Assembly: GCA_001714685.2 (NCBI GenBank)
Contig: MDTP02000004.1
Span: 1 to 56,347 of the forward strand
Direction of reading: 5' to 3'
DNA: 56,347 nucleotides
DNA from: Methanosarcina sp. Ant1
Lineage (GTDB): Archaea; Halobacteriota; Methanosarcinia; Methanosarcinales; Methanosarcinaceae
The notes under the pieces are model-generated. The model worked only from the letters and a program-made list of their open reading frames with translations. It was not told the DNA's origin and did no database searches. The first letter of the stretch is position 1; every line of letters begins with the position of its first letter. Below, in pieces: positions 3,163-24,349 of the stretch. Position numbers and translations under genes: made by a program.

Positions 3163-3186
3163 GCATATAACTCGAAAGGTCTAACG

Positions 3187-3699: not shown

Positions 3700-3705
3700 A
3701 AAGGT

Positions 3706-4326
3706 ATGATGTTCGATCGGGAAACGCAGGTAGTCGACTGCCGATGTGGTGCAGGACTTGGCAGAGGAGGAGGACTTGCTCAACGCGGTACTCTCTCTGA
3801 AGCCGGCCGTGCCGAGGTAGTAGCTATTGCCATGAGTCCCGGCCAGAGGCATATCACAAAACCGGTATGTGAGATCACATACGGCATGAGGAAAGAAAAC
3901 ATTCAGGTCAGTGTGCTGGTACTCTATTCAGGCTCCGGAATCCCTGAATCAGGTATGAGGACAGGGTCTTTTGTGTTGAGTCCGGTAGAAGTCGCACAAA
4001 TTGAAATGCACAAGCTGGCTGTTATTCACCTCGGAAATATCAAGGACCATGTAATTAGGAAAGCTAGGGAAATCCTGAGTCAGGCAAATATTCCGGCAAT
4101 TGTAGTCAGCCAGATCCCGGTAGATTTTGAGGATTTTGCAGAAGCAGGGATAAAGACGAGATTAGTGACGCCAAGGGATGAAAATATTCGTACAAAGGGA
4201 ATTGTGATGGATATGGTAAGTGGGGTTACACGCGGTGACTCTTGTCCCAGGGAAAAACTAAATTCAATCGTTAAATACGTCAAGACTACATTAGACCAGT
4301 TAGAAGATCATAAAGGAGTTGCATGA
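3706..4326 (+). CDS. mcrC: Methyl-coenzyme M reductase operon protein C (activation complex component)
   Basis: McrC belongs to the protein set of the ATP-dependent complex that reductively activates Mcr (component A3a in the literature). The 206-residue product has the family N-terminus with DCRCGAGLGRGGGLAQRG at about residues 11-28. This is a cysteine- and glycine-rich motif that could bind a metal cluster or nucleotide. It starts at ATG 3706 (the codon after it is also ATG), 6 bp after mcrD. Its TGA at 4324-4326 is only 1 bp before the mcrG start, so translation of mcrC and mcrG is probably coupled. The AAGGAG site for mcrG lies inside the end of mcrC. Identification is by motif and operon position. 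Confidence 0.93.
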   Translation: MMFDRETQVVDCRCGAGLGRGGGLAQRGTLSEAGRAEVVAIAMSPGQRHITKPVCEITYGMRKENIQVSVLVLYSGSGIPESGMRTGSFVLSPVEVAQIEMHKLAVIHLGNIKDHVIRKAREILSQANIPAIVVSQIPVDFEDFAEAGIKTRLVTPRDENIRTKGIVMDMVSGVTRGDSCPREKLNSIVKYVKTTLDQLEDHKGVA

Positions 4327-4327
4327 G

Positions 4328-5074
4328 ATGGCATACAAAGCACAATTTTATCCAGGCGCAACATCAGTTGGCGTTAACAGAAGAAAACATATGTCTGGAA
4401 AACTTGAGAAACTCAGGGAAATTTCAGACGAAGACTTAACCGCAGTTCTCGGACACCGTGCTCCAGGAAGCGACTACCCAAGCACCCACCCACCACTTGC
4501 AGAGATGGGAGAGCCCGCATGCTCAACCCGTGAAGCTGTCGAAGCCACACCAGGCGCAAAGGCCGGTGACAGAGTTAGATACGTACAGTTTGCTGACTCT
4601 ATGTACAATGCTCCAGCTACCCCATACTTCAGATCATACTTTGCAGCAATCAATTTCAGAGGTGTAGACCCAGGTACCCTTTCCGGCCGTCAGATCGTTG
4701 AAGCCCGTGAAAGAGACATGGAAAAGTGCGCCAAGGTCCAGATGGAAACTGAAATGAGTGACCACGCACTCTGTGGTGTGCGCGGATCAACCGTTCACGG
4801 CCACTCCGTCCGTCTTCAGGAAGACGGCGTCATGTTCGACATGGTCGACAGGAGAAGACTCGAAGGTGCCAACATCATTATGGACAAAGACCAGGTTGCA
4901 ATTCCACTCGACAGGAAAGTAAACCTTGGCAAGCCCATGTCTGACGAAGAAGCTGCAAAGAGGACTACCATCTACCGTGTGGACAATGTAGCCTTCAAAG
5001 ACGATGCAGAAGTCGTTGAATGGGTGCAGAGAATCTTCGATCAGAGAACAATATACGGATTCCAGCCGAAATGA
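4328..5074 (+). CDS. mcrG: Methyl-coenzyme M reductase, gamma subunit
   Basis: McrG is the gamma subunit of methyl-CoM reductase and contributes to the F430 and coenzyme M pocket. The 248-residue protein starts [15 protein letters not shown] and has the length known for Methanosarcina McrG. I chose ATG 4328 over the in-frame TTG at 4319. The ribosome-binding site AAGGAG at 4313-4318 is 9 nt from 4328 and almost touches 4319, and the family begins at MAY. Conserved blocks include [20 protein letters not shown] and the C-terminal [13 protein letters not shown]. Spacing to mcrA is 10 bp. Codon bias is strong, as in mcrA and mcrB. Confidence 0.97.
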
Positions 5075-5084
5075 GGTGACCATA

Positions 5085-6800
5085 ATGGCAGCAGATATTT
5101 TCTCTAAATTCAAAAAGTCAATGGAAGTCAAGTTCACACAGGAATTTGGTACAAACCAGCAGTCCACCACGGACATTACTGGCAAGACCGAAAAGTTTCT
5201 GAGGCTTGGACCTACGCAGGATGTAAGAAAGGCCGAAATGATTAAGGCCGGAAAGGAAATCGCAGAGAAGAGAGGTATTGCATTCTACAACCCGATGATG
5301 CACACAGGTGCTCCCCTCGGTCAGCGTGCAATTACTCCTTACGTCATCTCAGGCACTGACATCGTTGCAGAACCTGATGACCTTCACTACGTAAACAACG
5401 CTGCAATGCAGCAGATGTGGGATGACATCAGGAGAACCTGTATCGTCGGTCTTGACCTTGCTCACGAGACCCTCGAGAAGAGGTTGGGTAAGGAAGTTAC
5501 CCCTGAAACCATCAACCACTACCTTGAAGTCCTCAACCACGCCATGCCCGGTGCAGCAGTGGTTCAGGAAATGATGGTCGAGACCCACCCAGCACTTGTC
5601 GATGACTGTTACGTCAAAGTTTTCACAGGCGATGACGCACTTGCAGACGAAATCGACAAGCAGTTCTTGATCAACATCAACAAGGAATTCTCTGCAGAAC
5701 AGGCAGCTCAGATTAAGGCCTCCATCGGCAAGACCACCTGGCAGGCAATCCACATCCCAACAATCGTCTCCAGGACAACTGACGGTGCTCAGACCTCCAG
5801 ATGGGCAGCCATGCAGATCGGCATGTCCTTCATCTCCGCATACGCAATGTGCGCCGGTGAAGCAGCAGTCGCTGACCTGTCCTTCGCTGCAAAGCACGCA
5901 GCTCTGGTTTCCATGGGTGAAATGCTGCCCGCAAGGCGTGCACGTGGTCCTAACGAGCCCGGTGGACTTTCCTTCGGTCACCTCTCAGACATCATCCAGA
6001 CAAGCCGCACAGTGAAAGACGACCCAGCAAAGGTCTCCCTTGAAGTTGTGGGTGCAGGCTGTATGCTCTACGACCAGATCTGGCTCGGATCCTACATGTC
6101 CGGTGGTGTCGGGTTCACTCAGTATGCAACAGCTGCATATACTGATGATATCCTCGACAACAACGTGTACTACAACGTCGACTACATCAACGACAAGTAC
6201 AAGGGTGCTGCAACCATCGGCACAGGCAACAAGGTAAAGGCAACTCTCGACGTCGTAAAGGACATTGCAACCGAGTCCACAATCTACGGTATCGAGACCT
6301 ACGAGAAGTTCCCGACTGCCCTTGAAGACCACTTCGGTGGATCCCAGAGAGCAACCGTGCTCGCAGCTGCAGCCGGTGTCGCATGTGCTCTTGCAACCGC
6401 AAACGCAAATGCTGGTCTCTCTGGCTGGTACCTCTCCATGTACCTGCACAAGGAAGCATGGGGCCGTCTCGGCTTCTTCGGATACGACCTGCAGGACCAG
6501 TGCGGTGCCACAAACGTTCTGTCCTACCAGGGCGACGAAGGTCTCCCAGACGAACTCCGTGGTCCAAACTATCCAAACTACGCAATGAACGTCGGCCACC
6601 AGGGTGGATACGCAGGTATCGCTCAGGCAGCCCACGCAGGCCGCGGCGACGCATTCACCGTCAACCCGCTCATCAAGGTCTGTTTCGCTGACGATCTCAT
6701 GCCCTTCAACTTCGCTGAACCCAGGAGAGAGTTCGGTCGCGGTGCCATGAGAGAGTTCGTGCCTGCTGGTGAGAGATCTCTCATCATCCCAGCAAAATAA
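5085..6800 (+). CDS. mcrA: Methyl-coenzyme M reductase, alpha subunit
   Basis: McrA is the catalytic alpha subunit carrying most F430 contacts. The product has 571 residues when started at ATG 5085 ([15 protein letters not shown]). A longer in-frame reading to 5004 is rejected because GAGGTGA (5073-5079) places the start at 5085 and the family starts there. The modified residues known from the family are all present. They are His271 in [11 protein letters not shown] (N-methylhistidine), Arg285 in [13 protein letters not shown] (target of Mmp10) and Gln421 in GGSQRA. Gly466 in GYDLQDQCG is the thioglycine position and Cys473 the S-methylcysteine position. From Gln421 on, numbering is one higher than the published Methanosarcina numbers I recall. 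This suggests a one-residue insertion, probably around TVKDDPAK. It is the last gene of the operon, followed by a hairpin terminator. Confidence 0.98.
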
Positions 6801-10333: not shown

Positions 10334-11368
10334 TCAGAGAGATTCTCTGAAATCCCTGATACCCTGCGCTACATTGGAGAGTAGAATAAAAGCTATTCTC
10401 TGGTTAGGCCAGGAACCCAGCCCGCAGTCAGGACCCACATACTTAATCAGGTTACCGAAACGTCTATAAGCAAGCTTGAGTCTCTTTGTTATAACAGCTG
10501 AAGTTTCGAGTTCCGTAACAATCTCGGGAAGGTATTGCTGATCTTTCCAGACATTAGTACAGTACTTTTCATTAAGGATTCCTGCCATGCTGAAAATATC
10601 AGTTCTCGCAATGCCGAGCCTCAGGAAAGAATCTGTATCTTCAAGCACTTTTTTGTCGATCAGCTCCATATAGGAGGGCGTACCTGCTGATTCTATTCCT
10701 ATTACGTTGATTGTAGGAGCCTCGCAGGCAAAGTTATAGTAGAGAGCAGAATGGAGGTGAATCTCGACATCAGCTCCCCATTTACTTGCTGACTTAGAGG
10801 CATCTGTAAGGGCAGAAATAATATCATTTTCATCAAAAGCAAGCTCAGGGTTCAACCCGATGCTTGGCTCATCAATAGAAACCGTCACAATCTTAAAGTG
10901 CTTTGCAGATCTCATGGAGTTTCTGACGAAATTGTTCACGCTTTTTGCAAGAAGAGAATATATGTCCGTATATCGTGTACCTCCAAATTCCTTCAGGTAA
11001 AGCTCGGTTGGACCGGTTACACAGATCCGGACCTTCAGGGTCTCCCCAAACTGTTCCTTATAGGCTTTCGCAACCTTTTCGATAGCCTCAAGTTCTTCGA
11101 TCCTAGCACACTCAAGTTTAACCTCAAAGGGACTGTCACAGCAGTTGGAATCCCGGATAACCTTCAGGAACTGCTCATTCATGTCCTGGTACTGAGGGTA
11201 GGTAGGAACCTCCACACCTGCATCTATTTTCTGCTGGAAGGCGTCATTGATTACCGTAAAAAGTTTTTCGTCTTCTGCTCTCGTTTTAAAAGCGTTTCTG
11301 ACCCATTCTTTGCTAACTCCTTCAGGAAGGGGATAGCTTCCGACATCATCAAAGATGATTTCTTCCAT
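10334..11368 (-). CDS. Core methionine synthase-like protein (MetE C-terminal domain family), paralogue A
   Basis: The 344-residue protein matches the catalytic C-terminal barrel of cobalamin-independent methionine synthase without the N-terminal folate half. Archaeal proteins of this type take a methyl group from a corrinoid protein or methylcobalamin rather than from folate. Expected zinc ligands appear as His204-x-His206 (EIHLHS), Glu226 (GIESAG) and Cys315 (GPDCGLGSWP). In classical MetE the second ligand of the first pair is Cys (H-x-C), so H-x-H is a visible difference. Other family marks are VTGPTELYL near 117-125 and SIDEPSIGLNP near 164-174. Paralogue B lies 106 bp upstream on the same strand. 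The methyl donor and acceptor cannot be read from sequence. Confidence 0.8.
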   Translation of the reverse strand: MEEIIFDDVGSYPLPEGVSKEWVRNAFKTRAEDEKLFTVINDAFQQKIDAGVEVPTYPQYQDMNEQFLKVIRDSNCCDSPFEVKLECARIEELEAIEKVAKAYKEQFGETLKVRICVTGPTELYLKEFGGTRYTDIYSLLAKSVNNFVRNSMRSAKHFKIVTVSIDEPSIGLNPELAFDENDIISALTDASKSASKWGADVEIHLHSALYYNFACEAPTINVIGIESAGTPSYMELIDKKVLEDTDSFLRLGIARTDIFSMAGILNEKYCTNVWKDQQYLPEIVTELETSAVITKRLKLAYRRFGNLIKYVGPDCGLGSWPNQRIAFILLSNVAQGIRDFRESL

Positions 11369-11474
11369 ATCTTCTTAGTAGATCTATGAGAATTTAAGCA
11401 TTATTGGAAATACAAAAAAATAATAAAAATGAAAAAGAGAGTGCCAAAGAACTTAATCTCTCGAATAAACTCAT

Positions 11475-12524
11475 TCAGTCGAACTTATTCGCTGATCTTT
11501 CTGCATTAAATGCATTGATGCCTTTTGCAGTATTCTCAAGCAGTTTGAAAGCAAGATCCTGATCCGGCCAGAAAGCCAGCCCGCAGTCCGGACTCGCATA
11601 CTTTATGCGGCCTCCGAGAATGGAAGAAGCCTTTTCAAGCCGCATTTTTACGACATCCGGAGTTTCAAGTTCAGTAACTATTTTTTGCATGTACTCCTTT
11701 TCCTTCCAGGCATTAACTCCATACTTTTCATTGACAATACCTATAAGACTGGAAACATCGGTCCTCGATACTCCTAGCCTGATATAAGTATCCGAGTCCT
11801 CCAGCACTTTTCTGTCAAGGATGTCCATATAGGAAGGGGTCGCGGCGTACTCAAAGCCTATGACATTGATAGGGGTCTCGCAGACGAGCTTATACTTCAA
11901 AGGAGAGTGAAGGTGAATCTCCATATCAGCCCCCTGTTTCCGGGCATAGGTGGAAGCAAGGGTAAGAGCAGAGATCATGTCTGCGTCAGAAAGCTGAATC
12001 CTATCATTAATTCCAAGGCTGGGTTCATCCAGAGCTACAACCTTAATTTTGAAATTTTTCGCAGTTTTAAACGCCTGCTTTATAAAGTTTTCAATGTCAA
12101 GTGCCAGGATATGGTATGCGTCCGCAAAAGCCATTGTTCCGAAGGCTTGAAGATACAGGTCTGTAGGGCCTGCAACACAAACCCTAACTTCAAGAGTCTC
12201 TCCTGTCTCTTCCCTGTATTGCTTTGCAACCTCGTCAATTATCTCCAGTTCAAGGATCTTCGCATTTTCTTCTTTTAGTACATAGGGTTCATAACAATTC
12301 TTTTCATTTTTGATAATATCCAGGAACTGTCCAATTTTGTCTCGGAATTGGGGATAAGTGGGGACGTGCACTCCCACATCAATTTTTCTCCGGAAAGCCT
12401 CCCTTATCATGGAAAAGAGTTTTTCGTCTTCATTCCTATTTTCAGCTGCAGCCTTTACCCACTCTCTCGTGAGGCCCTCAGGCGTGGGAAGGCTGCCTCC
12501 ATCGATAAAAATAATCTCCTGCAT
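11475..12524 (-). CDS. Core methionine synthase-like protein (MetE C-terminal domain family), paralogue B
   Basis: This 349-residue paralogue of the downstream gene shares the same architecture: DGGSLPTPEGLTREWVK at the N-terminus, VAGPTDLYLQAFG, ALDEPSLGIND, EIHLHSPLKYK, GFEYAATPSYMDI and ASPDCGLAFWPDQD at the C-terminus. It also has H-x-H instead of the H-x-C of classical MetE, with Glu and Cys in the expected later positions. The two genes are a tandem duplication, clearly diverged along the whole length, so they may use different methyl donors or act as a pair. The start is the ATG at 12524. Assignment to the family is firm; the exact reaction (homocysteine methylation versus another thiol) is inferred. 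Confidence 0.8.
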   Translation of the reverse strand: MQEIIFIDGGSLPTPEGLTREWVKAAAENRNEDEKLFSMIREAFRRKIDVGVHVPTYPQFRDKIGQFLDIIKNEKNCYEPYVLKEENAKILELEIIDEVAKQYREETGETLEVRVCVAGPTDLYLQAFGTMAFADAYHILALDIENFIKQAFKTAKNFKIKVVALDEPSLGINDRIQLSDADMISALTLASTYARKQGADMEIHLHSPLKYKLVCETPINVIGFEYAATPSYMDILDRKVLEDSDTYIRLGVSRTDVSSLIGIVNEKYGVNAWKEKEYMQKIVTELETPDVVKMRLEKASSILGGRIKYASPDCGLAFWPDQDLAFKLLENTAKGINAFNAERSANKFD

Positions 12525-13381
12525 GCCTGATATATAAGACAGCTGAAGTTTTATAGGTATTGGAATTACTCTAATCGCACAGTGTAAATTTTTTACATAT
12601 AAGATATAAAAAGAAATTTAAGTAAATAAGGATTATCTTAGTAAGAGGAAGTTTTGGGGAATTTGACTTTTAACAAGGTCTTTTCGAAAACAGCGACGAT
12701 TAGAAGGAGATGAAAGTACCTGGTATGAAATATTTAAAAATAAAAATTTTCCGAGACTTAAGGGTTTTCATGCCTTCAACTCTTCCCCGATTTGCTGAAA
12801 TTATCTTCAAGCTTCAACTACAAATGTATCCAGAGACGAATTAACTGAAATTTACTCAATTATGGATGCACCAAGCCTCAGGTTTATAGAAGCCTCAGTC
12901 TTATTGTCATCTAGACGCACAAAATTTCAAAGCTGGAAGCAGTATGTCCAAAATCATAATCAAAACCTTAAGGCCTGTATTAGGAAGCGATATCCTGCAG
13001 ACTATGGGTGCGCCCATCGCATCTACAATTAACAGATTTATCATTTATGAGATATTCAATGAACTCTCGATCCTTATCCTGATTTTGTACATGCAAAAAG
13101 TATTTTTTTATTTAACTCGATCGGTTGACGCTTATGGGGTTATCAATGCCTCTTTTTCTTCAGAAATTCTGATTGTAAAGAAGCAACTTTTCGATGGACA
13201 CACTAACTGGCTTTGATTCAAAGGGTATGTTTCGTAAAATATCTCAGAGGTATATGTAAAAAGCAGATGTTTTCAGTTGACTGTATGAATCCTAGTTGAT
13301 AATCTTCTAGACGCTTTCATCCAATACAAGTTTGGAAATGTATGTAAGCTGATAAATGGGTCAATTTTGGGGGTATAAGCA
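12525..13381. other. Intergenic region upstream of the first AsnB-like gene
   Basis: This 857-bp AT-rich stretch has no gene I trust. A 90-codon frame at 12944-13216 lacks a clear ribosome-binding site and has an uneven, hydrophobic composition without a family resemblance. The last 70 bp (ATCCAATACAAG... to GGGGGTATAAGCA before the ATG) resemble the leader of the second AsnB-like gene, so the leader was duplicated with the gene. Confidence 0.45.
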
Positions 13382-15190
13382 ATGAAAAGCGAAATAAAAT
13401 TAATGAATAAATACTGTGCATGGAAAGAGATAAAATTTAACGAAGTAATGTATTATCTGAAAGGAAATGTTTTTTTCAACAATAAGCTCCTTAGTCCAGA
13501 AAAACTGACTGAGTTAATGACTCCCTTAATCTGCAGAGAAGACGAGAGTCAGGAAAAAGAATTAGGAGAGTTTTTCGAAGGATTAAACGGAGAATTTGCA
13601 ATTGTTGCTGAGACAAATAGCAGAATATTTTGTGCTGTTGACAAATTAAGAAGAATTCCATTATTTTACATAACGACAAAAGATAATTTTGTCATATCAG
13701 ACGATGCGTATTATTTAAAAGATAAAATTAATTCGCGTCTGAATGAGAAAAATGCAGCAGAATTTATGGTTGCAGGCTATGTAACTGGGGACGAAACGCT
13801 CTTTGATGGCATAAAACAGATAAGAAGCGGAGAGTTTTTGACTTATCAGAAGAAAGACAACTTTCTGAAAACGTCCTGCTACTTTAGATTTTCACATGGA
13901 AATTATTACGAACTGCCTGAAAGTCAACTCCTCGAAATGCTGGATCAAGTCTTTGTACATACTTTTTCTAGACTTATAGAAAGTACAGTAAACCAGGGAA
14001 AAAAGCTGATAGTTCCTTTAAGTGGTGGACTTGACTCGCGTATTATTGTTGCAATGTTGAAAAGGCTTGGAGTTAATGATGTTACCTGTGTCAGTTATGG
14101 AAGAAAAAGCAATCGAGAATCCATTATAAGCAAACAGGTTGCAGAAGCCCTTGGGTATGACTGGCTTTTTGTAGAGTACACAGCCCAAAAGTGGCATGAA
14201 TGTTACAACTCTAAAGAAGCCGATTGCTATCGAACATTTGCTGGGAACCTGTCATCTTTGCCGCATATGCAGGATTTCCTGACTGTAAAAACATTGAAAA
14301 GCCAGGGGAAAATTCCTGATAATTCTGTATTTGTTCCAGGGCACACCGCAGATATGCTTGCAGGAAGCCATATTCCCAGTTACTATCTCGATAACTCAAC
14401 GAAATATGACTCAGATACCTTTTCTGTAGATTCTTTGAAACTGCACTATAATCTATGGAAATGGCCATATGAGCTTGAACATACCTTTAAAGAAAAGCTA
14501 AACAAATCAATATCCGGGCTGGAAATTAATGATAATAAGACCTGTGCAAGTGCAATAGAACTCTTTGATTTTAATGAAAGACAGTCGAAGTTTATTGTTA
14601 ATTCAGTGAGGGCCTACGAATTTTTCGGGTATGACTGGAGAACTCCATTCTGGGACATGGAGTTAATTGAGTTCTATTTAAAGGTCTCACTCGAATACAG
14701 GATCAATCAGACTCTATACATAAAATATGCTAGAGATCGACTGTTTTCCGGAGAACTTAACGTACTTAAAAAAATAGACTGTACCACGGATATACTGGAC
14801 CTGAGACCTCTGGAAGAACGTTCAAAATATGAAAAAATCCTTTATTATTGGACATTCATTCACAGCTACTATGATGAGAAAATTAACAATCCAATATGGG
14901 GGAGATACTTTGAAAATCCCATCATCTCAAGGCTTCTAACAAAAGCCACAAGGTATGACAACAAAGCTATTGAGGAATATCCTCTGCTAAAAATGATTTT
15001 GGAATATCGAAACGAAAAAAATTACCCGCTATCAATAAACGGAATAAGCTCCCTGGAATACCTGGCAAGCATCAAAGGAGAGACTTATTCGTCCGCAGGT
15101 AAAGCGGTTTTGCAGCCGACTGTTTCCCTCACAAAAAGGCTTATTCAAGTAATTAATATGAAAGCAGGAAATATCCACGAAAGACGTTAG
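13382..15190 (+). CDS. Asparagine synthetase-like amidotransferase lacking the glutaminase cysteine, copy 1
   Basis: The 602-residue protein has the two-domain layout of AsnB. An N-terminal Ntn/GATase-like part carries LNGEFAIVAE near 68-77, DKLRRIPLFY near 87-96 and VISDD near 104-108. A C-terminal ATP-pyrophosphatase domain has the PP-loop SGGLDS at 214-219. The protein starts MKSEIKLMNKY, so the catalytic Cys at position 2 of class II glutaminases is absent. Ammonia release from glutamine is therefore unlikely, and the enzyme may use free ammonia or another amine on an adenylated acid. Such cysteine-less AsnB homologues occur in glycan, antibiotic and lasso-peptide pathways. GGGGGT precedes the ATG. 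A paralogue follows 498 bp downstream. The substrate is unknown. Confidence 0.8.
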   Translation: MKSEIKLMNKYCAWKEIKFNEVMYYLKGNVFFNNKLLSPEKLTELMTPLICREDESQEKELGEFFEGLNGEFAIVAETNSRIFCAVDKLRRIPLFYITTKDNFVISDDAYYLKDKINSRLNEKNAAEFMVAGYVTGDETLFDGIKQIRSGEFLTYQKKDNFLKTSCYFRFSHGNYYELPESQLLEMLDQVFVHTFSRLIESTVNQGKKLIVPLSGGLDSRIIVAMLKRLGVNDVTCVSYGRKSNRESIISKQVAEALGYDWLFVEYTAQKWHECYNSKEADCYRTFAGNLSSLPHMQDFLTVKTLKSQGKIPDNSVFVPGHTADMLAGSHIPSYYLDNSTKYDSDTFSVDSLKLHYNLWKWPYELEHTFKEKLNKSISGLEINDNKTCASAIELFDFNERQSKFIVNSVRAYEFFGYDWRTPFWDMELIEFYLKVSLEYRINQTLYIKYARDRLFSGELNVLKKIDCTTDILDLRPLEERSKYEKILYYWTFIHSYYDEKINNPIWGRYFENPIISRLLTKATRYDNKAIEEYPLLKMILEYRNEKNYPLSINGISSLEYLASIKGETYSSAGKAVLQPTVSLTKRLIQVINMKAGNIHERR

Positions 15191-15688
15191 ATTAGATTGA
15201 CAAACTCCTTTTGAGAAGTCGTATAGTTGTTGAGAAGTCATACAGTTGGAGACACTCGAGTATAGTTGACAAAAATAAATTAAATTGTCAAACATACTTG
15301 ATAAATTTCCTTTTTAAACTCTCATAACTTTCAAGAATTCCTTCTAGATCTCAAAAAATCCTCTTAACTTTCAATCAGGTTATCCATTTCCAGTATCATA
15401 TACCCTTCTACTAAGACCATAAATTTCATACAAGGTCGTAAATTTCATGCTTAGAAAGCATAAAGTCTTTTTAGAGAATTTCTCAAAGATCCCGTGCCTC
15501 CAGTCCTCCGACAGTAGAAGATACCGATTCAAAGATCGTATCCTTTAAAGCGTCTTAGAGAATGAAGAAAGGAGAGGTATCTTTAGCCTGATCTTTGGAT
15601 TCTACAGGTAAGTTTCATATCTTTTATCCAATATAGTTCTAAAGGCACACAAAAGCTGATTAAAGGGCAATTTATGGGAGTATCAGCA
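15191..15688. other. Intergenic region between the AsnB-like paralogues
   Basis: It contains a 20-bp tandem repeat (TTGAGAAGTCGTATAGTTG and TTGAGAAGTCATACAGTTGG, about 15212-15250) and a TTGACA...TGTCAA inverted repeat at about 15266-15290. A 34-codon frame starts at ATG 15447, with AAGGT 9 nt upstream, and would encode MLRKHKVFLENFSKIPCLQS and 14 further residues. Nothing else supports it as a gene. The final part is the conserved leader of the second paralogue. Confidence 0.4.
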
Positions 15689-17395
15689 ATGAGAAGTAAT
15701 ATTAACTTACTTAATAAGTACTATCCTTGGAAAGAGGTAAAACTCAACGGAGTTAGATATTCTCTAAAAGGAAATGTATTTTTCAACAATAAGATCCTGA
15801 GTCCAGAAAAACTGGCTGAGTTAATATATCCCTTAATCTGTAGAGAAGATGAAATTAAGGAAAAAGAAATAGGCGAGATTCTCGAACGCTTAAACGGAGA
15901 ATTTGCAATTGTTGCTGAGACGAGTAGCAGGATATTTTGTGCTGTTGACAAATTAAGAAGTATCCCGCTGTTTTATACAACAGAAGAAGATAATTTTATT
16001 GTATCGGACACAGCTTATTTTTTAAAAGATAAAATTAATCAGCATTTTAATGAGGAAAATGCTGCAGAATTTATGGTTGTAGGCTATGTAACTGGGAACG
16101 AAACACTTTTTGATGGAATAAAACAGATAAGAAACGGAGAATTTTTGATTTATCACAAAAAGGAGAACCGTCTGAAAACTTCCTGCTACTTTAGATTTTT
16201 TCATAGAAATTATTACGAATTGCCTGAGGGTCAACTCCTCGAAATGCTGGATCAAATCTTTGTAAATACTTTTTCAAGACTGATTGAAAGTACCGTGAAA
16301 CAGGGAAAAAAGCTGATAGTACCTTTAAGTGGTGGATTGGATTCACGCATTATTGTTGCAATGTTGAAAAGGCTCGGAGTGAATGATGTTACCTGTATCA
16401 GTTATGGAAGAAAAGGCAATCGAGAATCCATTATAAGTAAAAAGGTTGCAGAAGCCCTTGGGTATGACTGGCTTTTTGTGAAGTATACAGCCCAAAAGTG
16501 GCACGAGTGTTATAATTCTAAAGAAGCCGATTGCTATCGAACATTTGCTGGAAATCTATCTTCTCTGCCGCATCTGCAGGATTTTCTGGCCTTGAGAGAA
16601 TTGAAAACTCAGGGGAAACTTCCAGACAGTTCGGCATTTGTCCCAGGACACAGCGGAGATATGCTTGCAGGCAGCCATATTCCCCATTATTATCTCGATA
16701 ATTCAAGAAGTTATGACTCAGAGACCTTTTTGGTTGATTCCTTGAAAAAAAACTACAATCTCTGGAAGTGGCCATCTGAGCTTGAACACACCTTTAAAGA
16801 AAAAATAAATAAATCAACAACCGGGCTAGAAATTAAAGATAATGAGACATGTGCAAATGCAATAGAATTTTTTGATTTTAATGAAAGGCAGGCGAAATTT
16901 ATTGTTAATTCAGTCAGAGCCTACGAATTTTTCGGGTATGAATGGCGAATTCCACTCTGGGATACGGAGTTAATTGATTTCTTTTTAAAGGTCCCGATAA
17001 AATACAGGATAAGTCAAAATCTTTATAAAAAATATGCAAGAGACTGGCTGTTTTCAGAAGAATTTAGCGTACTTAAAAATATTGATTGTACTACGGATAT
17101 ACTGGACCTTAGACCTCTCGAAGAGCGTTCAAAATATGAAAAATTCCTTTATTATCGGACATTCATTCACAGCTACTATGATGAGAAAATTAACAATCCA
17201 GATTGGGGAAGGTGCTTTGAAAATCCCCTTATCTCAAGGCTTCTAACAAAAGTCTCCAGATATGAAAACAAGGCTGTTGAGAAATATCCACTACTAAAAA
17301 GGATTGTGGAATATCGAAACGAAAACATGTATCCAATGTCAATAAACGGGCTAAACACTATGAACTACCTTGCAGCCATTATTGAGGGAGCGTAA
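15689..17395 (+). CDS. Asparagine synthetase-like amidotransferase lacking the glutaminase cysteine, copy 2
   Basis: This 568-residue protein is a close paralogue of the upstream gene, similar along its whole length. It shares the PP-loop SGGLDSR, the block GNRESIISKKVAEALGYDWL and the C-terminal DCTTDILDLRPLEERSKYEK. I start it at ATG 15689 (MRSNINLLNKYYPWKEV) rather than ATG 15674. It aligns with the start of copy 1, and the region equivalent to the GGGGGT ribosome-binding site of copy 1 (GGGAGT) would otherwise be translated. Position 2 is Arg, so the nucleophilic Cys is missing here as well. Relative to copy 1 the C-terminus lacks the last ~30 residues. The pair followed by a methyltransferase suggests a small-molecule or surface-glycan modification locus, which is inference. 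Confidence 0.8.
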   Translation: MRSNINLLNKYYPWKEVKLNGVRYSLKGNVFFNNKILSPEKLAELIYPLICREDEIKEKEIGEILERLNGEFAIVAETSSRIFCAVDKLRSIPLFYTTEEDNFIVSDTAYFLKDKINQHFNEENAAEFMVVGYVTGNETLFDGIKQIRNGEFLIYHKKENRLKTSCYFRFFHRNYYELPEGQLLEMLDQIFVNTFSRLIESTVKQGKKLIVPLSGGLDSRIIVAMLKRLGVNDVTCISYGRKGNRESIISKKVAEALGYDWLFVKYTAQKWHECYNSKEADCYRTFAGNLSSLPHLQDFLALRELKTQGKLPDSSAFVPGHSGDMLAGSHIPHYYLDNSRSYDSETFLVDSLKKNYNLWKWPSELEHTFKEKINKSTTGLEIKDNETCANAIEFFDFNERQAKFIVNSVRAYEFFGYEWRIPLWDTELIDFFLKVPIKYRISQNLYKKYARDWLFSEEFSVLKNIDCTTDILDLRPLEERSKYEKFLYYRTFIHSYYDEKINNPDWGRCFENPLISRLLTKVSRYENKAVEKYPLLKRIVEYRNENMYPMSINGLNTMNYLAAIIEGA

Positions 17396-18112
17396 TTATA
17401 GAAAAACAAGATATTCACGTGAGCAGGAATACCTGGTAGTGCAACATTTCAAAGTATATTAGTTAAAATTAGATCAAAAATTAACAATGCAAGATCAGAA
17501 TTCGGCTCTTAAAGTTATATTTTCAGAAGCCCAGTTATTTTTTCGGTTTTTCTTGTGTCAGACATCTGCCTTCTTCGATCCTGTTCTCGGCTGGTGAACG
17601 TAAAAATTCATTTCATTTTTTTACTGATATTGTTTTTCTCAAAACTTTTGAAATTGCACCCATATCAATAAATATCAAATATTGACAACATCCTCGTCGA
17701 GATATAATTATTGTAAGCAGGAGAACTAACAAATCCTGTTAGAGAATTAGATCCTTTCCGAAAAGTCAATAATGACATGTTGTAAAAGTTACAATAGGTC
17801 ACAACACTTTTCGGATAGGCTCTTAATCCATATGAAACTGATTTTTGTTTGCATCCACAAGAAATAACAATCAAAAATATGTGTATTTTAGGATGTATTT
17901 ACTGCCGAATGTGGGATATAGTAATAGGCGACCTACGCATTTGAAAGACGAAATAAAGTACATGCATCCTCTCCATTTTAATGAGATTTAGGCAATTAAG
18001 TGCTTAATGCTGCCGTTTTTTAGTTAAACTGCGTAAGTCCTATACTGGTCTTTGAAGTTCTATTTTCGTCTGAACTCTAAACCTTTGGTTCAATGTCCAT
18101 CTGGACAGCCTT
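17396..18112. other. Intergenic region between convergent genes
   Basis: There is no gene in these 717 bp. The notable content is a cluster of hairpins at 17726-17823, listed separately. The flanks are AT-rich without recognisable repeats. Confidence 0.5.
17726..17823. other. Cluster of strong hairpins, candidate structured element
   Basis: Two adjacent inverted repeats occur. The first is CTAACA-AATCC-TGTTAG at 17726-17742. The second is long: the arm GATCCTTTCCGAAAAGT (17750-17766) pairs with ACTTTTCGGATAGGCTC (17806-17822) with two mismatches. Inside lie nested TGAC/GTCA (17773-17776 with 17798-17801) and TTGTAA-AAG-TTACAA (17780-17794). It lies between two convergent genes. It could be a bidirectional terminator, a small mobile palindrome or an RNA; no T-run follows either side directly. 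Confidence 0.5.
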
Positions 18113-18874
18113 TTAGGTCCGAAATATTATTGCATGATATCTGTATTCATAATACATTGATTGTACGCAAATAATTTCAAAACCATTTTTATTTGCAATT
18201 TTTTTAATTGTTTTGGGATTATGGGAATACCCGAGAATATCTCTTGGACGATTTTTCAAGCTTGCTGATATTGTATTTTTAACCCCACAAACTACTTCGC
18301 ATATAAATTTCCAGCATGTTTTGTCTTGTGAAAACAGCCCTATCTTCCACAATGGGTATAAGCGAGGGTCCAACATGTCAAACAATACTATTTTACCCCC
18401 GTTATTAAGATAGTTTGACGCATTAAAGATAAATTCATCAATTTCTTGATATGTCAAGTACTGAAATACTCCAGCTGCGGTTATTCGATCGAAGGAAGAG
18501 TCCAGTTTGTCCCAGACAGTTTTGTCGTCAGCCAGGATTAAAGTTGTATTTTCACAATTTCTTTCCCTTATTCTTTTGCTTGCTTCATCAAGCATGGACG
18601 GGGAAAAGTCAACTCCTATCGTCTTTTCATATTCTGTCGCGTAGTAAACCAGGAGTTCTCCAGCACCGCACCCAAAGTCAAGAAGTTTTTTACCCCCATC
18701 CAGATGGAATAGTTTTTCCCTTGCTTCCATAGCAAGAAATTCTTCAGCTGAAGATCTATGGCCGCCCCTTTTCTTATCTGCAAAAAACTCTTCCCAGACA
18801 TTTTTTGGTTTCGATATATTTTCATATCCCCCAGACATATTTTCTTGATACCCCCAAGTCTTGCTTTTTTTCAA
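18113..18874 (-). CDS. Class I SAM-dependent methyltransferase
   Basis: The 253-residue protein has a Rossmann-type methyltransferase fold. Motif I is KLLDFGCGAGELLVYYA at about 63-79, followed by an acidic strand IGVDFSPSMLDEASKRI (motif II). A third motif, LILADDKTVWD, and the post-motif DRITAAGVFQYL (about 129-140) complete the pattern. The C-terminal part is rich in aromatic and basic residues and probably sets the substrate. It most resembles small-molecule methyltransferases of the Methyltransf_11/25 type; the substrate is unknown. It is convergent with the AsnB-like pair and may belong to the same accessory locus, but no shared operon supports that. The ATG at 18874 is preceded by GGGAGATATTTG. 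Confidence 0.82.
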   Translation of the reverse strand: MKKSKTWGYQENMSGGYENISKPKNVWEEFFADKKRGGHRSSAEEFLAMEAREKLFHLDGGKKLLDFGCGAGELLVYYATEYEKTIGVDFSPSMLDEASKRIRERNCENTTLILADDKTVWDKLDSSFDRITAAGVFQYLTYQEIDEFIFNASNYLNNGGKIVLFDMLDPRLYPLWKIGLFSQDKTCWKFICEVVCGVKNTISASLKNRPRDILGYSHNPKTIKKIANKNGFEIICVQSMYYEYRYHAIIFRT

Positions 18875-19384
18875 ATATCTCTCCCTTTATAGCGCCCTCA
18901 AAAATGATTAAGTATAAGGATAAATAAGTCTTATCTCTTGACTTAAATATATTCTCATTGCTTCCTCAATGGGTCGTGGGTGTGATTTATTGAAGACCGT
19001 AAGCAGAAGAAGCTCCCTATATTTTCCTCAAATGTGGAGGGTGTACTCGCTTTTCTGGAATTGATCAATAACTCAAGGACACGACCCTCAATGAAAAAAC
19101 AGTATTTTAATAAGTTTCTGTTGTTTAAACGATTATCACCGTTATTTTTTATTTTTAATGTATTTTACCCCTTATTTTTCCCATTCAATCCAAATGCAGC
19201 CTCTTCAAATTAAAGGGATAATTTTCCAATCCGGAAAATATGTAACAATTTTGTTGTACAGTTGTGAAGTTGAATCTGTATTTTGAGAACGAATAATTAT
19301 AGATTTGGCAATCTATTTTACTAAATTCTGGAACTTAAAATTATTGAGTATAATTAAAAAAATTGGAGAAATGGGGGCTCAGAC
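18875..19384. other. Intergenic region
   Basis: No gene is visible in these 510 bp. An 8-bp inverted repeat, GGGTCGTG (about 18969-18976) and CACGACCC (about 19080-19087), encloses about 100 bp. The half nearest 18875 should contain the promoter of the methyltransferase. Confidence 0.4.
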
Positions 19385-19897
19385 TCATTTTTCTTCGTTT
19401 TCAAAGTCCTCGTCTTCCAATCCGAGTTCTTTCCTCAACTGAGCTTCCTTTTTCTCTAATATATCCATAACAGTAGAAACAGGGACAATGAGTCCATTGA
19501 TCATTACGAACTCATTAAAAGGATTATTCTTTTGCACTCTTTCTGTGGAGAATTCCTCATCAAAATACCTCATTTTGAACATATCGCGTATCGTCTTTGC
19601 TTTCTGGGAGGTTGTGCTCTGGCGTGTCCCAAAATAATCACATATATCATTAGCGCTTACGTTGGGCTCAGAACTTTTATCAAAAAGAAAATTGATCTGC
19701 CCAAGCGCATAAACCACTGCAGCCGCCCAGATATCCAGCTTTCCGGAAAGAAAAGGTACCTGCCTTTTTCGGCTCATTTTATCGATCAGCTTTCTGCACA
19801 GGATTTTATAATCCTCATCAAGGTAGCGGTCCGCAAAGCCGTCTGTCATCTCAATGAGAGCGTCTTTCTTCTGCTTTACAAGTTCGCGATTGCTCAT
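19385..19897 (-). CDS. DUF6398-like protein
   Basis: This 170-residue protein of unknown function resembles the DUF6398 family. The marks are LDEDYKILCRKLIDKMSRKR, then PFLSGKLDIWAAAVVYALGQ followed by INFLFDKS, and a helix-turn-helix-like segment (DICDYFGTRQSTTSQKAKTI). In related proteins this part looks like a small DNA- or nucleic-acid-binding fold. The C-terminus is acidic and charged (EKKEAQLRKELGLEDEDFEN). It lies directly downstream (55 bp) of the integrase-like family gene on the same strand, so the two may be co-transcribed. The role is not known to me; the family call is from remembered sequence pattern only. Confidence 0.65.
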   Translation of the reverse strand: MSNRELVKQKKDALIEMTDGFADRYLDEDYKILCRKLIDKMSRKRQVPFLSGKLDIWAAAVVYALGQINFLFDKSSEPNVSANDICDYFGTRQSTTSQKAKTIRDMFKMRYFDEEFSTERVQKNNPFNEFVMINGLIVPVSTVMDILEKKEAQLRKELGLEDEDFENEEK

Positions 19898-19952
19898 AGT
19901 ATGTCCTCTAAGTATCTACTTATATAATTTCTACTTTTCAACCAAATATAAA

Positions 19953-20639
19953 TTAAGGGTACATGTTCCCACTTTCCAGAATCCTCCACATATCCCCTGT
20001 TTTCGCAAGCAGGAGACAAATAGTCCAGCCGGTCTTGCACATGGAACTAATTTTTTCAGGAACGGACACAGGCCCAATGTTTCTCCCGTCCTGAAAACTC
20101 TCAAACCAGAGTTGTCCGGGCTTAATCTCGGTGATAATGAAGAAATCATCCAGAGTTTCAGAATGATCTTCAACAGGGTGAGTCAGAGCGTAAAGGCACA
20201 ACAAATCAGAAACTTCCTCAGCCACTGGCATTTCAACCTTTAGCCTCTTCACAAGCAGATTTATTACTTCATAATTCTCATCGCCCATGTAGTCCTTCTC
20301 ATGCATCCACTTCACCAGTTTGTGCATTACTCTGCCCAGAGTTTCCAGAGAGGCCTTGCTGGCCAATACATTCCTGATCACGAAATAACCAAGAAAATCC
20401 TTAATTTCCAAAGCCCTAATGTATTCAGGGTCGAAGACTTCACAGTATTTCTTACCTTCTCCCTCATTAAACTCATTCAGACGAATCTTATCTTTATCAC
20501 TCAAATATTTGTGAGCCCAGCCGTTGAGATATTTTTCAAAATAATAAATCGCCTCTTCATACCCTGAATACGTTTTCGGGCTCATGCGGGCTTTCTGTTC
20601 GGCCAGAAATTCCTCAAAAACATCCTTTATGGTTTTCAT
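19953..20639 (-). CDS. Uncharacterised protein with integrase-like N-terminal helical domain
   Basis: I do not recognise a named family. The first ~40 residues (TIKDVFEEFLAEQKARMSPK then TYSGYEEAIYYFEKYL) look like the SAM-like core-binding domain of tyrosine recombinases. The catalytic Arg/His/Tyr domain is absent, so it is not a recombinase. A middle helical part (VLASKASLETLGRVMHKLVK, WMHEKDYM) is shared with the pseudogene next to it. The last ~55 residues (LWFESFQDGRNIGPVSVPEK) form a separate, probably beta-rich domain ending WRILESGNMYP. It is the only complete member of a family of three neighbouring sequences (pseudogene 20871-21855 and gene 21971-22381). Length is 228 residues; the start is ATG 20639. 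Confidence 0.7.
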   Translation of the reverse strand: MKTIKDVFEEFLAEQKARMSPKTYSGYEEAIYYFEKYLNGWAHKYLSDKDKIRLNEFNEGEGKKYCEVFDPEYIRALEIKDFLGYFVIRNVLASKASLETLGRVMHKLVKWMHEKDYMGDENYEVINLLVKRLKVEMPVAEEVSDLLCLYALTHPVEDHSETLDDFFIITEIKPGQLWFESFQDGRNIGPVSVPEKISSMCKTGWTICLLLAKTGDMWRILESGNMYP

Positions 20640-20870
20640 ATAATTCTACTTCGAATTTCTCCGTACTGCTTTTTCAAGTTATTGGTAGTCTCAACGACAT
20701 TTTAAGCAGTTGGCTGAATTGTGGGAAGTTTATAATGAGAGCAACGTTATAGACCTACTGATTGATTGTGGTCGAGGTTCCAGAATGCCGTATTTAACCG
20801 TTCTTTGAGAGTATCTACAGGCATTTGACTGGGAAAAAGAAAAAATAAGAATAGAGAATGGGTCAGAAAA

Positions 20871-21855
20871 TCAGTATTCAGTTACAGGGTACACAACCTT
20901 ACTATCAATTATCCTCCACTTATCTCCTATCTTCCCTATTCGGAGCACGAGTCCAGCCGACCCTGCACAGGGAACTGATCTCTTCGGAAACTAACACAGG
21001 CCCTGTAAGCTCTCCTGTACTATCGAAGTCTTCAAGCCATAATTCTCCGGACTCTATTTTTTAGATGGTGAAGCGGCTGTTCAGCTCTTTAGCATATTTT
21101 TCATGGGGAGATTTCACGGCATACTCCGATATCAGGCCACTGGCTTCCACCGCAGCAGGGAGATCAGCCTTGAGTTCCTTTACCCGCTTGTCTATTGTCT
21201 CATAATCATCGTCAGCCATATACCCTTTATCATGCAGCCACTTCACCAGTTTGTGCATAACCCTGCCCACTACTTTCAGGAAGTTTTTACTGGTTTCAAC
21301 CTTCAAGACCACAAAAGTGCTGAGAAAATCCTCCATTTCCCTGAGCCCAAGCTGCCTTTTTACCCTTTTTCCTGATACTCCCTACAACCTCAGCAAGTTC
21401 ACTATAATGCTCGGGATCAAGGTATTTTTTTTTTCAGAGGCCCAGGGCAGGAATTTATGGAAAAATTGCCTTGAAGTTTCAACGAAAGTTGCACTCTCTC
21501 CAACATCATTAATCAGATAATCTTCGAGGAGATATTCAATGTCTGAAGGTGCAATGTACGCAAGGTCACAAATCTGGCAGTACTCTTTGTGCTCGTTCTT
21601 CTGCTTCTATTTATAGAGCTCCTGATCCTCTTCATACAGATCGTCGGAAGAACAAACGTCCAGATATTCCTCGAAAAGTGAGATTAAATTTTCATAGTCG
21701 TTATAAGTCCTGGGACTCAGGTCTTTTTTCTGCTCGTTTAAAAATTCCAGGAAAGCTTCGTTTATCGTCTTCGTGGCAGTTTTATAGGAGAATCGTTCTG
21801 TCGGTTTTTCGGATTTTGCCTGGTTTTTGGGAATCTCCGGTTCACCGACCTCCAT
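20871..21855 (-). pseudogene. Broken member of the integrase-like family
   Basis: Family-like sequence runs through three frames. The N-terminus (21855 to 21607; AFLEFLNEQKKDLSPRTYND) ends in an in-frame TAG at 21607-21609. The same frame continues beyond it (NEHKEYCQICDLAYIAPSDI). A frameshift lies in an A/T homopolymer around 21426-21434. A frame resembling the intact gene follows (VVGRVMHKLVKWLHDKGYM, 21336-21061) and ends in TAA at 21061. Sequence past the stop still matches (ESGELWLEDF, GPVLVSEEISSLCRVGWT). After another shift near 20950 it ends GDKWRIIDSKVVYP before the stop at 20871. At least two stops and two frameshifts make it non-functional. Confidence 0.75.
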
Positions 21856-21970
21856 CAGAAGAAAAAAAAACCTAAAGGTTTTGGAAAAGAAACGAAAAAA
21901 CAGAAAATGAAGGACAGAAAGGAACTGCCTGAAAACTAGATTCTCCAGTTTTCATTCCGGCAAAATCTCC

Positions 21971-22381
21971 TCAATGTCTTTTCTGATACTTTGCAAGGAC
22001 TTTACTGTTTGCCTCAAAAGCTTTCTCCTCAATGTAACCCTTTTCCCGAGCCCATTCGAAAAAGTTCTGGAGAACCTTTGCAGCTGTCCCGATGAATTTT
22101 TTACCTCCTCCTTCTTCAACCACGTAGTCCTCGAGGAAGTCCTTAATTCCTGATGGGATAAGGTGCTCGGGGCCAAAAATATCACCGTAATTTTTATTGT
22201 CGTGTTCGTGTTGGCCGGCGTAAAGATCTCTATCCTCTTCAGACAGACAATCTTCGGCACTGAATTCCAGGAATTCTTCGTAAAGAAGGATAACGTCTTC
22301 ACAATCCAGGAAGGTGTCAGATTTCAAACTAGCTTCCTGTTCATTCAAAAATTTCCGAAAAGCATCATTTATAGTGATCAT
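21971..22381 (-). CDS. Short member of the integrase-like family, C-terminally truncated
   Basis: The 136-residue protein starts MITINDAFRKFLNEQEASLK, matching the N-terminus of the 228-residue neighbour. It continues through the helical middle (AAKVLQNFFEWAREKGYIEE). It then ends LAKYQKRH without the C-terminal beta-rich domain. The frame next to the stop would read on as KDIEEILPE, which fits the family better (compare KADLPAAVE in the pseudogene). A one-base frameshift near 21985 therefore probably trimmed the end. Whether the short protein is still made is uncertain. It is the third family copy in 2.4 kb, all on the minus strand, which points to tandem duplication followed by decay. Confidence 0.5.
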   Translation of the reverse strand: MITINDAFRKFLNEQEASLKSDTFLDCEDVILLYEEFLEFSAEDCLSEEDRDLYAGQHEHDNKNYGDIFGPEHLIPSGIKDFLEDYVVEEGGGKKFIGTAAKVLQNFFEWAREKGYIEEKAFEANSKVLAKYQKRH

Positions 22382-22576
22382 ATTTATCTCTGCAGCAGTA
22401 CTTGTGAAATATTATTGTACCATTTTTGCTTCAAAAGATTTTATATTTTTCTGAGAGATATTGTGTACTAATCTACTGCTACTTTTTGACTGCCAGCGCT
22501 TCTAAACGGCATTAAAGAAACATCTAAATCGCAACTAAAAGGTAAATCAAAAAAGGAAAACTCCCGAAAAATGAGA

Positions 22577-22600
22577 AAAAAGGGATTTAAGATCTCTTTT
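22577..22600 (-). terminator. Possible argS terminator
   Basis: Read on the minus strand, AAAAGAGAT-CTTAA-ATCCCTTTT forms an imperfect hairpin (one mismatch) followed by a T-rich run TTCTCATTTTT. It is 40 bp after the argS stop codon. Confidence 0.4.
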
Positions 22601-22639
22601 ATTTCTCTGTTTTATTTCTCTGTTATCTTTTTTCCAATC

Positions 22640-24349
22640 TCACATAGATTCAGGAGCTTCGATTCCCAGAGTATCAAGAGAATTTGCAAGCACAATCCTT
22701 GCACATTCCACAAGGGCTAGTCTTGCAGCCCTTACCTCTTCATCCTCAGAAGCAATAACAGGGACAAAACGATAGAACTGGTTAAAGGCATCTGCGAGTT
22801 CGCGGGCATAGATTGCAAGCACATGAGGCTTGAGTTCGCGGGCGGCAAGGTCGATTATGCTGTCAAACATTGCCATTTTCTTGACTAGATCGATTTCGCT
22901 GTCTTCGATAAGGAGGGAAGAGTCGATTTTTCCGGAGGAGTTCCAGGTTACCTCCTCTTTTGCTTTTTCGAGGATACTGCAGGCGCGGGCGTGGGAGTAC
23001 TGGATGTAGGGAGCTCCCTGTTTCTCAAAGTCCAGAGCTTCTTTCCAGTTGAAAACGGTTGATTTTTCGGGAGAGACCCTGACTATATCGTATCTCACTG
23101 CACCCATTCCGACCATTTCTGCAATCTGCTTCTTGAACTCGTAGGCGGTTTCCGGACGACGGGTTTCGACCTGTTCGAGGGCAGCTTCAGTGACTCGGTC
23201 AAAGAGATCATCTGCACTTATGAACTGACCGCGGCGGGTGCTCATCGAACCTTCAGGGAGGGAGACAAACTCGAAGATCACGACCTCAGGTTCCTTGATT
23301 CCGATTGCATTTAGTGTAGCCCTGAGCTGGCCGGAAATCAGTTTGTGGTCTGCTCCGAATACATCAATTATACGGTCTGCCTGTCCGGCTTTCCATTCGT
23401 GATAGGCAAGGTCTCTTGTAGTATAGAGCGAAGTTCCGTTTGAGCGCTGTATAACAAGAGTTTTCTCAAACCCATAGTCTGAAAGGTCTACTACAATGGC
23501 TCCTTTGTCCGTTTTTGTCCTGCCGGTAGCCTTGATCCGCTCGACAATATCATGCACTGCCCCGGATTTAAGGAAGCGAGATTCATTGACAAACTTGTCG
23601 TGGACAACGTTTAAGCGAAGAAGGGTTTCTTTGATCCCGGCAATAGCCATGAAAACTGCCTTATCAAAGCGTTCGATAGTCCTGATGTCCCCGACTTCCA
23701 CATTTTCCATTAGGGCATCGATTTCCTTTACGTACTCCGGGTTTTTGTCCAGCTCGCTATTTGCCTTGATATACACGTCAGCAATAGCAGCATCAGATTT
23801 TCTGGAAAGATCAAGCTCAAAGCGTTCACATGCCCAAGAGACTACTGCAATCTGGCGACCCATATCATTGACATAGTACTGTACCTCCACGTCATGCCCC
23901 GCGCGCTTGAGAATGCGAGCTAGCGTATCTCCTAGAATCGAATTGCGGATGTGCCCCACATGCAGGGGGCCGTTCGGGTTTGCTGAGGTGTGCTCAAGGA
24001 GAATTCTATCCTTTGGGGCTCCGCAACCAAATTTTTCCTTTTCTTCCAGGACTGCAGCTACGGTCCTGTTCAGGTAGTGTCTTCCTGCACGGAAATTAAT
24101 GTAAGGGCCTGAGGCATTTACTTCCCCTACATACGAACCATCCGGGATTTCGATTGCAGAAACAATACGGGATGCAATCTCTTTCGGGTTTTTTTTGTAA
24201 AGGCTTGCCAGCCTGAAGGCAGCCCTGCTCGTAAGGTCGGCGTGAGAAGAGGTTTCGAAATAAAGTTCGGAATCCTCAATCTCAAACCCTACTTTTCGGA
24301 TAGCGTCTTTTAAGATTGATATAGCCTGAGCTTTGAGTTCCAGGAACAA
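22640..24349 (-). CDS. argS: Arginyl-tRNA synthetase
   Basis: This class I synthetase charges tRNA-Arg with arginine. The 569-residue protein has an N-terminal Add-1-like domain and the HIGH motif as HVGH at 130-133, within EHTSANPNGPLHVGHIRNS. The KMSKS-equivalent is MSTRRGQF, as is common in ArgS, and there is a C-terminal DALR helical domain (HYLxEKAK-type tail ending LGIEAPESM). The start codon is TTG at 24349. AGGTGA lies 6-7 nt upstream of it, and the family N-terminus (FLELKAQAISIL) begins here. It sits downstream of aRF1 on the same strand, but a GC-rich hairpin between them suggests separate transcripts. Confidence 0.96.
   Translation of the reverse strand: MFLELKAQAISILKDAIRKVGFEIEDSELYFETSSHADLTSRAAFRLASLYKKNPKEIASRIVSAIEIPDGSYVGEVNASGPYINFRAGRHYLNRTVAAVLEEKEKFGCGAPKDRILLEHTSANPNGPLHVGHIRNSILGDTLARILKRAGHDVEVQYYVNDMGRQIAVVSWACERFELDLSRKSDAAIADVYIKANSELDKNPEYVKEIDALMENVEVGDIRTIERFDKAVFMAIAGIKETLLRLNVVHDKFVNESRFLKSGAVHDIVERIKATGRTKTDKGAIVVDLSDYGFEKTLVIQRSNGTSLYTTRDLAYHEWKAGQADRIIDVFGADHKLISGQLRATLNAIGIKEPEVVIFEFVSLPEGSMSTRRGQFISADDLFDRVTEAALEQVETRRPETAYEFKKQIAEMVGMGAVRYDIVRVSPEKSTVFNWKEALDFEKQGAPYIQYSHARACSILEKAKEEVTWNSSGKIDSSLLIEDSEIDLVKKMAMFDSIIDLAARELKPHVLAIYARELADAFNQFYRFVPVIASEDEEVRAARLALVECARIVLANSLDTLGIEAPESM

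Follow-up and report, generated by a model that had tools for sequence, protein, structure and literature searches.

The stretch of DNA analysed here (the window, 56,347 nucleotides) lies on contig MDTP02000004.1 of Methanosarcina sp. Ant1, whose assembly amounts to 4.29 Mb in 342 contigs. It carries a tandem pair of genes for proteins of the asparagine synthetase B (AsnB) type, copy 1 and copy 2 (Table 1). We found that the pair represents a real and conserved AsnB variant clade without the glutaminase cysteine (Cys-less), whose members are, by the tests made, neither asparagine synthetases nor lasso peptide cyclases. An initial annotation had placed two AsnB-like open reading frames (ORFs) here, and both their coordinates and their scores against PF00733, the Asn_synthase superfamily domain (45.9 and 58.1 bits, cut-off 21 bits), bear this out. 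As also annotated, the SGGLDS loop is intact in both copies, in agreement with the SGGxDS ATP-pyrophosphatase loop (PP-loop) of AsnB, and the C-termini differ in length. The frame of copy 2 is open already from ATG 15674 (15674-17395, 573 aa). We favoured ATG 15689 as its start because the upstream element TTTTGGGGGTATA..ATG/GTG is conserved before the starts of the orthologues; with this choice the N-termini of copy 2 (MRSNINLLNKYY) and copy 1 (MKSEIKLMNKYC) agree.

It had been stated that the cysteine at position 2 (Cys2) is replaced by Lys and Arg. Lys is correct for copy 1; in copy 2 residue 2 is Arg from ATG 15689 but Gly from ATG 15674. Cys2 is likewise found in 0 of 13 Methanosarcina orthologues. 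The loss is larger than the annotation suggested. In both copies the match to PF13537 (GATase_7) is limited to profile positions 64-65 to 115, which implies that roughly the first half of the domain is missing, well beyond Cys2, and profile match and alignment together leave the first ~50-60 residues of the glutaminase domain unmatched. The copies are without a glutaminase nucleophile, and the view that glutaminase function is unlikely stands.

Neither copy reached the cut-off of the more specific models: 65.6 and 75.8 bits were obtained for TIGR01536 (asparagine synthetase B; curated cut-off 267.1), 49.2 and 50.7 bits for NF033535 (lasso peptide cyclase; cut-off 525), and 53.6 and 59.2 bits for TIGR03108 (eps_aminotran_1 / WbpS type; cut-off 816.9). 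In a tree of 35 rows, built by a quick method with support by SH-aLRT only, both copies, four Methanosarcina orthologues and six bacterial proteins formed one clade with a support of 100. All AsnBs with Cys2 fell outside it, including two from the same genome (L001 and L002), as did a bona fide lasso cyclase (L110) and Cys-less archaeal proteins starting MPGL(T/I)GI (L068-L070), which were closer to the AsnB side. Clustering with true asparagine synthetases, which had been named as one outcome that would count against an unusual function, was therefore not observed, and the suggested kinship with lasso cyclases found no support in either the scores or the tree.

For copy 2, AlphaFold2 with a 16-sequence alignment predicts an AsnB fold (mean pLDDT 77, pTM 0.80; C-terminal ~97 residues below 50). 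Residues 2-472 align to TsnB9, Escherichia coli AsnB, beta-lactam synthetase, human asparagine synthetase and carbapenam synthetase, with Z values of 22-26 and identities of 13-18%. The hydroxyamidotransferase TsnB9 (7YLZ) is at the top of this list (Z 26.1 over 409 residues, 13% identity); the Z values are tied across AsnB-fold entries, and thus point to no single closest relative and to no special kinship with TsnB9. Like the copies, beta-lactam and carbapenam synthetases combine a Cys-less AsnB fold with an inactive glutaminase domain, but no beta-lactam genes were recognised near the copies. At the presumed position of the Tyr-Glu dyad of beta-lactam synthetase, Tyr appears to correspond to His or Gln, and Glu appears to be present (Asp in copy 1). 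The proposed resemblance to beta-lactam synthetase is supported at the level of the fold.

With asparagine synthetase B the copies share the two-domain fold, the PP-loop and an E-x-R-x-P-x-x-D block (D-x-R-x-P in copy 1). Besides the N-terminal loss and the separate clade, they differ in two motifs of the alignment. The PP-loop of the clade reads SGGxDSR, whereas nearly all AsnBs have SGGxDSS or similar. At the AsnB site GxGxDExxxGY (GEGSDEVFGGY in the 1CT9 alignment) the clade has G-H/Q-x-(G/A)-D-x-x-x-G-x-H, and both copies show DMLAGSH in place of DExxxGY. The clade motif is present in bacteria from several phyla. Residue 447 is Lys in copy 2 and 13 orthologues and Ile in copy 1; it probably corresponds to the lysine of AsnB KxxxR, with the register argued from the alignment.

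Of 30 further Methanosarcina genomes, 13 carry the orthologue complete and in single copy, and one more (G019) contains fragments of it. Wherever the contig is long enough, the gene sits between a MetE-like pair (PRK06052) and the arginyl-tRNA synthetase (ArgRS) gene. Both border markers were present in 24/24 well-assembled genomes, and no remnant was found in the ArgRS-MetE interval of 12 genomes without the gene. This interval, 12524-22640 in the window (loci L078-L092), is an accessory hot spot in Methanosarcina, in line with the accessory stretch described by the annotation; the gene is present in 14/30 other species.

The two copies share 79% of their protein and 85% of their DNA sequence, with a synonymous divergence (dS) of 0.51 and a nonsynonymous to synonymous ratio (dN/dS) of 0.22; against orthologues of other species dN/dS was about 0.10-0.15. 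All complete copies have full-length frames, and the copies are under purifying selection. The possibility that the window genes are pseudogenes was rejected on these grounds. The copies pair in the genus tree with modest support (81/68). In G019, the 5' fragment is nearer copy 1 (82% vs 70%) and the 3' fragment nearer copy 2 (80% vs 71%), from which it follows that the tandem duplication probably predates the split of the G019 and window lineages. On a G019 draft contig (L043, 386-1742) a helicase-like ORF continues directly into what is left of the 3' part of the copy-2 orthologue; the second copy may have been broken by an insertion, or the contig may be chimeric.

Outside Methanosarcina the clade is rare (2/398 Pseudomonadota and 4/398 Bacillota genomes, seed genomes included). 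Clear surface-polysaccharide genes were found in 7 of the 10 bacterial loci read and genes for uronic-acid nucleotide sugars in 6 (L037, L039, L040, L042, L123 and L124), both being raw counts. A nucleotide-sugar 6-dehydrogenase is encoded in L037, L040, L042 and L123, that of L042 being a UDP-ManNAc dehydrogenase over its cut-off; Gfo/Idh dehydrogenases occur in L037, L039, L123 and L124, DegT aminotransferases in L037, L039 and L124, and a UDP-GlcNAc 2-epimerase in L124. The Gfo/Idh and/or DegT genes of L037, L039, L123 and L124 are of the UDP-diacetamido-uronate type. Genes for a flippase, Wzz or Wzy_C and glycosyltransferases accompany them in the glycan loci. A more distant Cys-less archaeal relative (L094, 3737-11422; MPGLTGI...) follows genes for a UDP-GlcNAc 2-epimerase, a nucleotide-sugar 6-dehydrogenase, a methyltransferase and a flippase. 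In L041 (9619-11448, minus strand) a glutaminase domain fused to a WbuX-like N-acetyl sugar amidotransferase adjoins a Cys-less AsnB-like gene; this fusion protein is a possible separate ammonia supplier.

The neighbors of the pair offered no conserved partner. A 34-codon frame in the spacer (15447-15551) had been put forward as a possible peptide. It exists, yet an ORF as long or longer occurred in 1153 of 2000 shuffles of the spacer and no related locus gave a convincing match, so that it is a chance frame and not a feature. A locus for a lasso peptide or another ribosomally synthesized and post-translationally modified peptide was rejected accordingly, the lasso model cut-off being missed as well; no peptidase was found among the scanned neighbors, not every small ORF being scanned. 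The nearby S-adenosylmethionine (SAM) methyltransferase gene is real (PF13649), but the link implied by the annotation is not conserved: the methyltransferase gene is absent from every orthologous locus, and a partnership was rejected. G019, alone among the other species in having traces of both copies, lacks the stretch that would hold it. A functional tie to the MetE-like pair was also rejected since all well-assembled species carry that pair, whether they have the AsnB-like gene or not. The two MetE-like paralogues are 54% identical, and several Methanosarcina genomes hold a further copy elsewhere.

The contents of the hot spot vary. They include a type I restriction-modification system together with a TnpB/Cas12f-like protein in G005 (L086), and a DinG-like helicase in G028 (L088). 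A defence role for the copies was rejected, neither having a PADLOC match, in spite of the restriction-modification system in G005. The window also contains a run of short, repeated ORFs whose N-terminal domain is of the phage-integrase SAM-like type. A relative of ~136 aa adjoins ArgRS in most Methanosarcina genomes, whether these have the AsnB-like gene or not.

Table 1. Features of the window and deletion-bearing orthologues of the pair.
Feature	Position	Strand	Remarks
Copy 1, Cys-less AsnB-like protein	13382-15190	+	602 aa, start ATG (MKSEIKLMNKYCAWKE); upstream GGGGGT common to orthologues
Copy 1 PP-loop	14021-14038	+	SGGLDS, then R; sequence, alignment
Copy 1 clade motif	14339-14377	+	GHTADMLAGSHIP, replacing AsnB GxGxDExxxGY; alignment
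Copy 1 codon ATA (Ile)	14720-14722	+	K447I; Lys codon of copy 2 at 17027-17029
Copy 2, Cys-less AsnB-like protein	15689-17395	+	568 aa from ATG 15689 (MRSNINLLNKYYPWKE)
Copy 2 PP-loop	16328-16345	+	SGGLDS, then R; sequence, alignment
Copy 2 clade motif	16646-16684	+	GHSGDMLAGSHIP; alignment
Spacer between copies	15191-15673		483 bp; last part resembles copy 1 leader
SAM methyltransferase	18113-18874	-	PF13649
MetE-like 'methionine synthase' pair	10334-12524	-	PRK06052; constant hot-spot border; functional link to copies: none
Arginyl-tRNA synthetase	22640-24349	-	Other constant hot-spot border; named from sequence, position constant
Short repeated ORFs	19953-22381	-	Phage-integrase SAM-like N-terminal domain
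mcr operon	1858-6800
Tandem near-identical 151-aa proteins	37797-38252, 38511-38966	-	No NCBIfam match
Deletion orthologues (GH(S/T)GDM motif)	L046 9909-11672, L047 10109-11881, L052 9992-11734, L055 12002-13744	-	Other Methanosarcina genomes

The interpretation given by the annotation is partly supported, and the amide-forming role that it suggested is the most reasonable chemistry. We tentatively propose, at somewhat less than an even chance, that each copy is a glutaminase-dead, ATP-dependent amide synthetase which acts on a glycan uronic acid and uses free ammonia or an amine. ATP would be bound at the SGGLDS loop and the carboxylate adenylated with release of pyrophosphate; free ammonia or an amine (an amino acid or amino sugar) would then attack the acyl-AMP to give an amide, with no hydrolysis of glutamine. 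The likeliest carboxylate would be C6 of a hexuronic acid of surface glycans, such as a 2-acetamido- or 2,3-diacetamido-uronic acid. Amides of amino acids and amines on uronic acids are known in both archaeal and bacterial surface glycans. In Methanococcus N-glycans, ManNAcA carries threonine at position 6; the enzyme adding it had not been identified according to a 2010 review (PMC2952790), and we found no later work among the papers searched. It has been reported that WbpS, a protein of the AsnB family, turns a 2,3-diacetamido-type uronic acid into the uronamide (PMC7468200). WbpS (TIGR03108) resembles the proposed enzymes in its superfamily, in the amide proposed at C6 of a uronic acid and in the Wbp-type diacetamido-uronate genes near the bacterial relatives, but it is modelled as a full-length amidotransferase, whereas the copies have neither the glutaminase nucleophile nor DExxxGY. 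We infer that the gene probably became common to Methanosarcina and bacteria by horizontal transfer. Methanosarcina retains it as an accessory gene of the ArgRS-MetE hot spot, and a later tandem duplication produced the two copies. A wider proposal, that a distinct uncharacterised family marked by SGGxDSR and GH(S/T/A)(G/A)DxxxGSHIP joins surface-glycan uronic acids to an amine, which may be an amino acid, in both bacterial polysaccharide loci and Methanosarcina, appears to us rather unlikely.

The weak points of the uronate proposal are the orphan position of the genes in Methanosarcina, the changed active-site motif and the deletion orthologues. No glycan gene was found near the Methanosarcina copies, so that the synteny with glycan genes sought by the annotation exists around the bacterial relatives but not here. 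Every Methanosarcina genome searched, that of the window included, encodes a UDP-GlcNAc 3-dehydrogenase and at least one nucleotide-sugar 6-dehydrogenase; in the window's genome the two genes adjoin on another contig (C3), and such uronic sugars are therefore probably available. These sugar-nucleotide genes are present in all species with or without the AsnB-like gene, which makes their co-occurrence uninformative. The bacterial sample is small (10 loci): two of its members (L122 and L125) lie outside glycan loci, and a third, on a short contig (L038), is accompanied by only a methyltransferase and a TPR protein. With regard to catalysis, Glu363 and Tyr368 of PesC, five residues apart, are conserved in five AsnB-like amidating enzymes; Tyr368 is essential in PesC, and the two residues are important for carboxylate activation (2026 preprint, PMC13060819). 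By our own mapping of the sequences they would correspond to E and Y of DExxxGY. Both are exchanged for other residues in the copies, so that carboxylate amidation of the canonical kind should not be taken for granted. Nor is the position matching the catalytic Lys conserved across the clade, the Lys being also missing in bacterial members. Finally, four Methanosarcina orthologues have lost the metal-site Asp through a common 3-residue deletion that results in PGHTGYG, which leaves room for a pseudoenzyme; between two of these orthologues dN/dS is still 0.13.

Such a degenerate or regulatory protein would have kept the ATP site and the fold of AsnB, would have ceased to form amides and would be tolerated in the hot spot. 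Its clean absence from many species fits this explanation, as do the 19 (copy 1) and 14 (copy 2) deviations from orthologue-invariant positions, compared with 1-10 in single-copy orthologues (leave-one-out), and the Ile of copy 1 at position 447. However, dN/dS values of 0.1-0.2, full-length frames, an invariant PP-loop and the same clade motif in several bacterial phyla argue against it, and we consider a pseudoenzyme improbable. Decay of copy 1 in particular, suggested by GHTAD and Ile447, was rejected since GHxAD and the absence of the Lys are seen in bacterial members too, so that these changes are not necessarily decay.

It is about equally doubtful that the copies are amide or lactam synthetases for small molecules or peptides, in the manner of beta-lactam synthetase or lasso cyclase, with an internal or external amine closing the bond and no role in glycans. 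Such chemistry is known for Cys-less AsnB relatives, the fold matches beta-lactam and carbapenam synthetases and AsnB to about the same degree, and the lasso cyclase L110, an adenylating AsnB relative, has also lost the Glu of DE (GDAVVGHG). Yet the lasso model falls far short of its cut-off, L110 lies elsewhere in the tree, no precursor was recognised and no precursor or partner gene is conserved, the neighbors being constant housekeeping or species-variable genes, and the relatives sit in polysaccharide loci. A small chance remains for an ammonia-dependent asparagine synthetase, or for an amidotransferase that receives its ammonia from a separate glutaminase subunit. Growth on ammonia is common among methanogens. 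Free ammonia is usable by AsnB-type enzymes, as stated for PesC and canonical enzymes (PMC13060819), but the separate clade, the loss of DExxxGY, at least two AsnB-type proteins with Cys2 already in the genome (L001 and L002) and a lack of any glutaminase gene adjacent to the pair speak against it.

Our literature search found nothing specific on AsnB homologues in Methanosarcina, and the present results call for caution against annotating these genes as asparagine synthetases. The four orthologues that lack the metal-site Asp are a natural test case for catalysis in the family. If the proposed action on glycan uronic acids is true, a Cys-less AsnB clade that can be recognised would make it possible to trace uronic-acid amide ligases by sequence.

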